From NCBI RefSeq assembly GCF_024718545.1, contig NZ_JAMXDB010000001.1, positions 124,001 through 188,000 on the forward strand: 64,000 nt of DNA. The letters run 5' to 3'. A model generated the notes under the pieces. The model saw only the letters and a list, made by a program, of their open reading frames with translations. It searched no databases and had not been told where the DNA came from. Both the position numbers and the translations under genes were made by a program. Below are positions 13,718-43,312 of the stretch, one piece after another (position 1 is the stretch's first letter; each line of letters starts with the position of its first letter). This stretch comes from Weissella fangxianensis. Its GTDB lineage: Bacteria > Bacillota > Bacilli > Lactobacillales > Lactobacillaceae.

Positions 13718-14293
13718 CTAATTAACATAATCACGATAGACGCCAATGACACGGCCGATAATGGTTGGGTTTGCCATCGTAACGGGTTTTAGATTACTAT
13801 TCTCCGGCTGTAATCGACAATGATTACCTTCTTTAAAGTAGCGGTATACATTTGTTTCATCATTGATTTTAACAACGACGATATCACCATCAAAGGCAGT
13901 TTGTTGTTTTTTAACCATCAAATAGTCATTATTTAAAATACCAATATTAAGCATGCTATTACTATGTTGTTGCTGGATAAAAACATCTTCATCAAAAGAA
14001 AACAAATGTTGGGCCGTTTTTTCAGTGATTGATAGATCCATTTCAGGATCATGATGACCATGCTTTAATAAGGCGATACCTTGCGGAGTAACTTTGATTG
14101 CTCGGGTTTTCTCGGCATCTTTTGTAATCAGACCTTTCTTTTGTAGACGTTCTAAGTGTCCATGGACTGTTGAAGATGATGCTAAACTAACCTTTGCACC
14201 AATTTCACGAATGGTAGGCGGATAACCATTGGTTAGTTGTTTGTCATAAATGAATTGCAATATTTCTAATTGTTTTCTTGGCTTCTGTGGCAT
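13718..14293 (-). CDS. lexA: LexA-type repressor, apparently unable to self-cleave
   Basis: SOS-type repressor of 191 residues. The N-terminal winged helix is typical of LexA (GYPPTIREIGAKVSLASSST, VHGHLERLQKKGLI), and the C-terminal half aligns well with the LexA S24 peptidase fold (GDIVVVKINDE, CRLQPENSNLKPV, IIGRVIGVYRD). The Ser of the dyad is kept (S113 in SNSM). The Lys expected in the V-K-R-F context is Tyr (Y150 in NVYRYF), and the VPxxGxVxAG cleavage segment is replaced by IALLKHGHHDPEM. RecA-stimulated autocleavage therefore looks impossible by the normal mechanism. The start at 14293 follows AAAGGAG (14303-14309). It is divergent from ynzC, as in Bacillus. Confidence 0.9.
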   Translation of the reverse strand: MPQKPRKQLEILQFIYDKQLTNGYPPTIREIGAKVSLASSSTVHGHLERLQKKGLITKDAEKTRAIKVTPQGIALLKHGHHDPEMDLSITEKTAQHLFSFDEDVFIQQQHSNSMLNIGILNNDYLMVKKQQTAFDGDIVVVKINDETNVYRYFKEGNHCRLQPENSNLKPVTMANPTIIGRVIGVYRDYVN

Positions 14294-14316
14294 ATGGGGT
14301 AGCTCCTTTGTCATTA

Positions 14317-14374
14317 AAGAATATTGTACGATAAATATCTGGTTGCGGAAACATTAGTTAACCTGAATATTCTT
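14317..14374. promoter_or_regulatory. Candidate operators in the lexA/ynzC divergent promoter region
   Basis: AAGAATATT (14317-14325) and AATATTCTT (14366-14374) form a perfect 9-base inverted repeat 40 bases apart. Each copy is nearly a palindrome around GAATATT. The left copy overlaps a TACAAT -10 for lexA; the right copy lies at the -35 position of ynzC, whose extended -10 is TGTTAAAAT (14385-14393). The usual Gram-positive GAAC-N4-GTTC LexA box is not present. Confidence 0.45.
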
Positions 14375-14427
14375 CAGTAAAATATGTTAAAATGGTAACA
14401 TTAAATTCAAAAAAAGGTGGAAATAAC

Positions 14428-14682
14428 ATGGCTGAGACAGATCACATGATGGCTGTTCGTTCACGAATTAACGAACTAGCCGCAAAAGCAAAATCTCCAG
14501 AGGGATTAACAGAGGATGAAGTTGCGGAACGTGCGGATTTGCGGGCTGAATTTTTGGATAATTTTAGAAAGTCTTTCCGTTCTCAAGTAGAAATGCTACA
14601 AGTTTATGATGAGAATGGTAAAGAAGTAACCCCTGAAAAGGTGAAAAAGATGCAGCGTGATAAGGGATTACGCGGTAATTAA
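14428..14682 (+). CDS. ynzC: DUF896 / UPF0291 family protein (YnzC-like)
   Basis: A small helical protein of 84 residues. The family core is visible as INELAAKAKSPEGLTEDE, ERADLRAEFLDNFRKSFRSQ and a C-terminal VTPEKVKKMQRDKGLR. In Bacillus subtilis ynzC is the last gene of the LexA-controlled yneA-yneB-ynzC operon divergent from lexA; here it keeps the divergent place but yneA (division inhibitor) and yneB are missing. AAAGGTGG at 14413-14420 supports the ATG at 14428 rather than an upstream in-frame ATG at 14392. Function is unknown. Confidence 0.93.
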   Translation: MAETDHMMAVRSRINELAAKAKSPEGLTEDEVAERADLRAEFLDNFRKSFRSQVEMLQVYDENGKEVTPEKVKKMQRDKGLRGN

Positions 14683-43161: not shown

Positions 43162-43177
43162 AATATTATAACTAAAT

Positions 43178-43312
43178 ATCTTCAGGGCAGGGTGTAATTC
43201 CCGACCGGCGGTAATTTCGTTTTGACGAAAAAGTCCGCGACCCACAGTTTTGTGGTTGATATGGTGTGAATCCATAACCGACAGTAAAGTCTGGTATGCA
43301 GAAGAATTAATG
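43178..43312 (+). promoter_or_regulatory. FMN riboswitch (RFN element)
   Basis: The RFN core is clear: ATCTTCAGGGCAGGGTG at the start, AATTCCCGACCGGCGGTA, a variable hairpin, GTCCGCGACCC, then the GGTTGATATGGTGTGAATCC hairpin and ACCGACAGTAAAGTCTGG, ending GAAGAAT. It binds FMN and controls ribU through the terminator that follows. Confidence 0.97.

Follow-up and report, generated by a model that had tools for sequence, protein, structure and literature searches.

An inducible SOS response is generally regarded as close to universal and as linked to mutagenesis, the release of prophages and resistance to antibiotics. The closest precedent for the protein described here is LexA of Synechocystis PCC 6803, which, in the accessible parts of three reports, does not take part in SOS and is retained to regulate other genes (PMC3091678, PMC7567884, PMC4759255); a modification has been proposed for its Ser173. 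As far as these partial sources go, that protein and the LexA of Weissella share a LexA fold without an Ala-Gly site and without a complete Ser-Lys dyad, the lost dyad residue being Ser in Synechocystis and Lys in the protein encoded in our window (the whole analysed stretch of 64,000 nucleotides from Weissella fangxianensis, contig NZ_JAMXDB010000001.1). The precedent concerns one cyanobacterium, whereas in Weissella a whole Firmicute genus is affected: its LexAs are missing one or both residues of the dyad, the linker is altered, and RecA changed on the same stem. IrvR of Streptococcus mutans, also listed among the closest systems, is a different protein from a different species.

Canonical LexA of other Lactobacillaceae is encoded by the same gene as the Weissella protein, judging by the DUF896 neighbourhood, the family score, the winged helix-turn-helix (wHTH) and the S24 fold; unlike it, Weissella LexA lacks the cleavage site, a complete dyad and a box at lexA or recA. 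A regulon study from 2013, in the portion of it that was accessible, calls the LexA regulon universal in 15 Lactobacillaceae genomes (PMC3616900). Among the matches listed from the open full-text literature, a scope in which subscription papers mostly do not fall, no report of the Weissella LexA state was found.

A preceding sequence-only reading had assigned a LexA winged helix and S24 fold to positions 13718–14293 of the window, and profile searches bear this out: the ORF scores 143.9 bits against TIGR00498 (cut-off 110.95), 66.3 bits against PF01726 (wHTH) and 64.1 bits against PF00717 (S24), the last two also above cut-off. As called, the ORF occupies 13718–14314 on the minus strand (198 aa, ATG at 14314), and an alternative ATG at 14293 gives a protein of 191 aa. 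The latter is the likelier true start, since AAAGGAG stands just upstream of it and the alignment shows the orthologous LexAs from W. thailandensis and W. paramesenteroides starting at the matching position. Counted from there, lexA spans 13718–14293 (minus strand); its wHTH domain (14099–14278, minus strand) keeps the recognition helix SSSTVHGHL, and the S24 C-terminal (dimerisation) domain lies at 13745–14017 (minus strand). A DUF896 gene (14428–14682, plus strand) diverges head to head from lexA across an intergenic promoter region (14294–14427) that holds no LexA box of the CGAAC-N4-GTTCG type at up to two mismatches. DUF896-like ORFs, as read from sequence, also adjoin lexA in the relatives L227, L230 and L232 (relatives being members of other genera of the family), which supports orthology of the locus. 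The genome (1.97 Mb, 77 contigs, 99.94% complete) contains no second LexA that a genome-wide search could find and no other S24 protein above the cut-off, the single further match being partial (14.6 bits). Two relatives with species names assign it to Weissella: W. thailandensis JCM 10695, with 96% in the best segment, and W. paramesenteroides ATCC 33313, with 75%.

Alignment to E. coli LexA reveals that the VxAG loop is missing and the linker shortened. The segment IALLKHGHHDPEM (14039–14077, minus strand) replaces the cleavage loop of the relatives, and the alignment check found no other Ala-Gly in the linker. The Ser-Lys dyad is incomplete: a Ser codon is retained at 13955–13957 (minus strand; the E. 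coli Ser119 position, Ser113 in the 191-aa numbering), and the column of the catalytic Lys156 of E. coli LexA holds Tyr (codon 13844–13846, minus strand; Tyr150 in the same numbering). Both losses, of a VPxxGxVxAG loop and of the dyad Lys in favour of Tyr150, had been claimed from the sequence and stand. A sequencing artefact behind them appears unlikely, because W. thailandensis has the same letters at the site and the dyad and all 25 of 25 Weissella LexAs lack the site and a full dyad. An AlphaFold model (mean pLDDT 81.3) has a pTM of 0.51, so that the placement of the domains relative to each other is unsure. Residues 87–98 in the 198-aa numbering, which cover part of the altered linker, fall below pLDDT 50; the C-domain is modelled confidently, with ten-residue blocks above 90 between residues 111 and 190, and the wHTH mostly reaches 76–89. 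The top PDB matches of a structure search with this model are LexA C-domains (Z 13–14.5).

For the comparison, the genus was taken as Weissella and the family as Lactobacillaceae in the GTDB sense. A survey of 251 family genomes set 11 Weissella genomes apart, with LexA E-values between 1e-18 and 1e-41, or in two genomes no match at all, against 1e-54 or better in 235 of the 240 genomes of other genera, as read from the table; G017, G028, G034, G163 and G174 fall outside this range. Twenty-five of the 28 Weissella genomes searched have lexA. It was not found in G055, G113 and G259, the first two giving only matches with E about 0.01 and the third none. Neither an Ala-Gly at the cleavage site nor the combination of Ser and Lys occurs in any of the 25 proteins (24 of which were re-counted). 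In the 24 aligned ones the Ser column reads A in 6, T in 6, N in 6, S in 4, H in 1 and D in 1, so the statement "Ser113 kept" is right for the window protein and wrong as the typical state, Ser being kept in only 4 of 24. The Lys column reads Y in 9, K in 6, G in 3, A in 3 and L, S and D in 1 each, with Lys retained in L036–L041. The possibility that a true cleavage site had been misplaced finds no backing either: the sole Ala-Gly among the 24 linkers is that of L059, which itself lacks the dyad.

LexAs of the other family genera have the Ala-Gly site and the dyad intact in 54 of 55 aligned cases, a sample that leans towards intact proteins because 30 of them are the top scorers of the family survey and 25 come from hand-picked genomes. 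The alignment with relatives thus confirms that what had been noticed in one organism is, judging by the predicted proteins, a genus-wide state of Weissella. Among the columns at least 90% fixed in relatives and differing in the commonest Weissella residue are those of the cleavage site and the dyad; the core columns of the wHTH and the C-domain that are fixed in relatives are mostly unchanged. Genome G266, whose lexA (L057) is split by an in-frame TGA, either a pseudogene or a sequencing error, was excluded from these column counts, from the lexA box count and from the domain identity and dN/dS comparisons.

A case outside Weissella is G163 (L090, L165), from another genus of the family, in which SD replaces AG and the dyad positions hold Asn and Gln. 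It has no recA box, yet a box still lies upstream of its own lexA, and G022 of the same genus has a full-scoring LexA. On its sequence G163 represents an independent loss of the cleavage parts, perhaps caught halfway along the course taken by Weissella.

LexA boxes also differ between the two groups. Within 400 bp ahead of the lexA HTH codons, a box with at most two mismatches from CGAAC-N4-GTTCG occurs in 53/55 relatives, as the type CGAAC-N4-GTTTG, versus 4/24 Weissella, where the hits are scattered and close to the chance level (expectation about 0.16 per locus if equal bases are assumed). At up to one mismatch, a box precedes recA in 23/30 relatives and 1/27 Weissella, and the window genome has none at either lexA (L042) or recA (L130). 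Relatives without a recA box number seven: G017, G028 and G034, in which no LexA was found (completeness 87%, 91% and 99%, respectively), G163 with its dead LexA, and G036, G040 and G009. The presence of the first four in this list indicates that operator loss accompanies LexA loss elsewhere too. The box test is nevertheless no strict rule, since the last three have an intact LexA, and G036 and G040 are boxless at both lexA and recA and G009 at recA. The first-listed perfect boxes precede a gene at 11/18 loci in relatives against 1/12 in Weissella, and the genes behind the relatives' perfect boxes, read from sequence, are lexA as well as ftsA, polC, ftsK and a Y-family polymerase.

Plain site counts say little, because relatives do not exceed the reversed control either, and we place the weight on promoter position. 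CGAAC-N4-GTTCG occurs 15 times in 28 Weissella genomes versus 70 for the control, and CGAAC-N4-GTTTG 70 versus 149 times in 22 Weissella and 69 versus 97 times in 18 relatives; G260 is the one Weissella genome above control for the latter motif (4 versus 3). The looser ancestral consensus RAAC-N4-GTTCG is present 93 times in five Weissella genomes, and its reversed control 211 times. At the 91 loci examined there (24 of which represent 26 listed sites of G255, owing to overlaps), 77 sites lie within an ORF, 13 outside and one, in G252, was not located; no SOS gene was recognised behind any of them. Outside ORFs, one site in each of G000 and G203 stands 5 bases before secE, the others of these two genomes lie in or near rli28-like repeats, and some of G255 precede genes read as ribBA, nadD and a LysM-type protein. 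None of the non-ORF sites looks like SOS, and one of them may possibly be a real LexA target. An explanation of the sites by tRNA genes was tested on five loci and found no case. Two Weissella intergenic regions (L283, L299) match Rfam rli28, each with a GAAC-N4-GTTC-like palindrome.

RecA, the partner of LexA in the switch, is altered as well. The family was matched in 28/28 Weissella genomes, 27 of them above the cut-off; the remaining one, G257, yielded fragments from a genome 66% complete and was excluded from the RecA counts. A hairpin insertion of 6–9 residues is present in 27/27 Weissella and 0/30 relatives, between the positions equal to G229 and R243 of E. coli RecA. According to the accessible part of an EM study, strong LexA contact on RecA lies around E156, G165, G229 and R243 (PMC3834820), and in our own mapping the E156 position is Asp in Weissella. 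The insertion is a correlation only, since hairpins are normal in G017, G028 and G034, the relatives in which no LexA was found. Genome G034 (L174), where a search to E 1e-6 turned up neither LexA nor any S24 protein, has two full-length RecA family matches.

In the RecA tree, the genus stem of Weissella measures 0.41 changes per site (0.45 in a second tree), with clade support of 99 and 100/100, respectively. The mean RecA distance from Weissella to the others is 0.945, versus 0.473 among the others, a ratio of 2.0. The same ratio for the neighbouring genes at the same loci is 0.98 for pgsA (hits in 24 Weissella and 19 relatives) and 1.43 for cinA (27 and 12), a rough comparison because both control genes are far more diverged. 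A general rate effect was rejected as the reason for the long stem, since pgsA does not share it and the somewhat fast cinA shares it only in part.

The stem might instead reflect a horizontally acquired recA, for instance one from streptococci that lack LexA, which replaced the original gene and so broke the partnership with LexA. A streptococcal source was first suspected because the RecA of PDB 8amd, which we take to be streptococcal, likewise has a hairpin extended by about 4 residues; so has a Lactococcus plasmid RecA. LexA is, moreover, missing from the Streptococcaceae studied in the regulon paper, going by its accessible text (PMC3616900). However, the tree joins the 8amd and Lactococcus plasmid proteins (100/98) and keeps Weissella apart from this pair among other Bacilli (89/91, not starred), which leaves its exact place unsettled and the streptococcal origin unsupported. 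Against transfer in general, the sequence flanking recA contains pgsA at 24 and cinA at all 27 of the 27 Weissella loci (at 19 and 12 of 30 in relatives), and the best database rows among the matches listed reach 55–67% identity. We regard replacement of recA as very improbable.

The two groups also differ in their further S24 proteins. Searched to E 1e-6, S24 proteins other than LexA above 35 bits occur in 0/28 Weissella genomes and in 7 of 30 hand-chosen relatives (G006, G009, G017, G029, G031, G039 and G183); presumably these are phage repressors. Partial matches of 29–31 bits in G253, G160 and G002 were set aside, and a threshold of 30 bits would give 0/28 versus 8/30. The Fisher p of 0.011, calculated without kinship correction, overstates the difference, as such values do when counts across related species are not independent.

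In Weissella, lexA is lost, interrupted or shortened in 6/28 genomes (not found in three, split by the TGA in G266, shortened and scrambled in the C-domain in G220 and G261), which also fits slow decay, and one could suppose that the SOS circuit is gone and that lexA is vestigial, decaying and functionless in most species. The C-domain identity of 0.46 within the genus, compared with 0.70 among relatives, points the same way, as does the fact that the Weissella search found no conserved SOS-type operator. On the other hand, 22/28 genomes keep an intact full-length ORF, and the wHTH identity of 0.61 in the genus is near the 0.67 of relatives (these averages leave out L059 and L060 on the Weissella side and L090 among relatives). 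Three pairs at dS 0.6–1.1 have a wHTH dN/dS of 0 to 0.02, and two of them, both of the G255 type at dS about 1, are constrained in the C-domain too (0.004 for L036–L041 and 0 for L036–L040). The pair L052–L056 has a wHTH dN of 0 at dS 0.64 and a C-domain dN/dS of 0.18, the C-domain of L052–L054 gives 0.25, and the window protein and that of W. thailandensis (L042–L043) give 0.12 in both domains at low dS; many other pairs are saturated. Simple decay is, on this evidence from codon substitutions, apparently not the case everywhere in Weissella, and we consider a vestigial LexA unlikely. Because the search with the ancestral consensus gave no convincing target promoter, it is constraint that carries the reading of an active repressor.

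Another alternative is a LexA rewired to some control other than RecA, be it a ligand, a modification or a foreign protease that cuts the shortened linker. The C-domain is strongly constrained in some Weissella lineages, and the Synechocystis protein, which has neither the site nor the Ser, controls genes for motility and salt response and is modified after salt upshift, as stated in the accessible parts of PMC7567884 and PMC4759255. The linker, though, varies freely between Weissella lineages, which argues against a conserved protease site. Rewiring is a tentative possibility at best. The sequence-only reading had offered a constitutive repressor, a ligand-controlled one or another protease for SOS induction; the constitutive repressor fits best of the three, and induction by another protease is less plausible, given that lexA and recA have lost their ancestral SOS operators too. 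Its view that selection for RecA-dependent autocleavage has gone while the DNA-binding and dimer parts remain is supported and seems to fit the Weissella LexAs examined.

We therefore favour, with good confidence, the reading that the window gene is the orthologous LexA of Weissella, that the SOS switch of RecA and LexA was dismantled on the genus stem, and that the protein is a putative constitutive repressor. Every Weissella tested lacks, in its predicted proteins, the Ala-Gly bond and a complete dyad and has an altered RecA, and boxes at lexA and recA are at or below chance. Very likely LexA is non-cleavable and uncoupled from RecA in this genus, and in most species it is likely a functional constitutive repressor. 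Presumably unable to cut itself, it would remain a dimeric winged-helix repressor that acts constitutively on a group of putative non-SOS sites, and DNA damage would not relieve this repression. The change in the RecA hairpin may go with loss of the LexA docking surface, and the uncoupled repressor would then have been lost or truncated in some lineages. We further hypothesize, at even odds, that SOS was dismantled as a unit across the genus, with cleavage, operators and the RecA docking hairpin affected on the same branch and phage-type S24 proteins missing, and that LexA, once uncoupled, was maintained by selection as a new non-SOS regulator.

If this is true, Weissella is a natural "SOS-off" lineage for testing the worth of inducible SOS, and with a genus that lacks the switch beside relatives that possess it, what SOS costs and what it gains can be put to a direct test. 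The state of LexA is also a warning against predicting LexA sites in Weissella with the RegulonDB matrix, which a prediction published for W. cibaria uses, according to the part of the paper that is accessible (PMC9498152). Elsewhere in the window, an ordinary FMN riboswitch (108.8 bits) lies at 43174–43310 on the plus strand.
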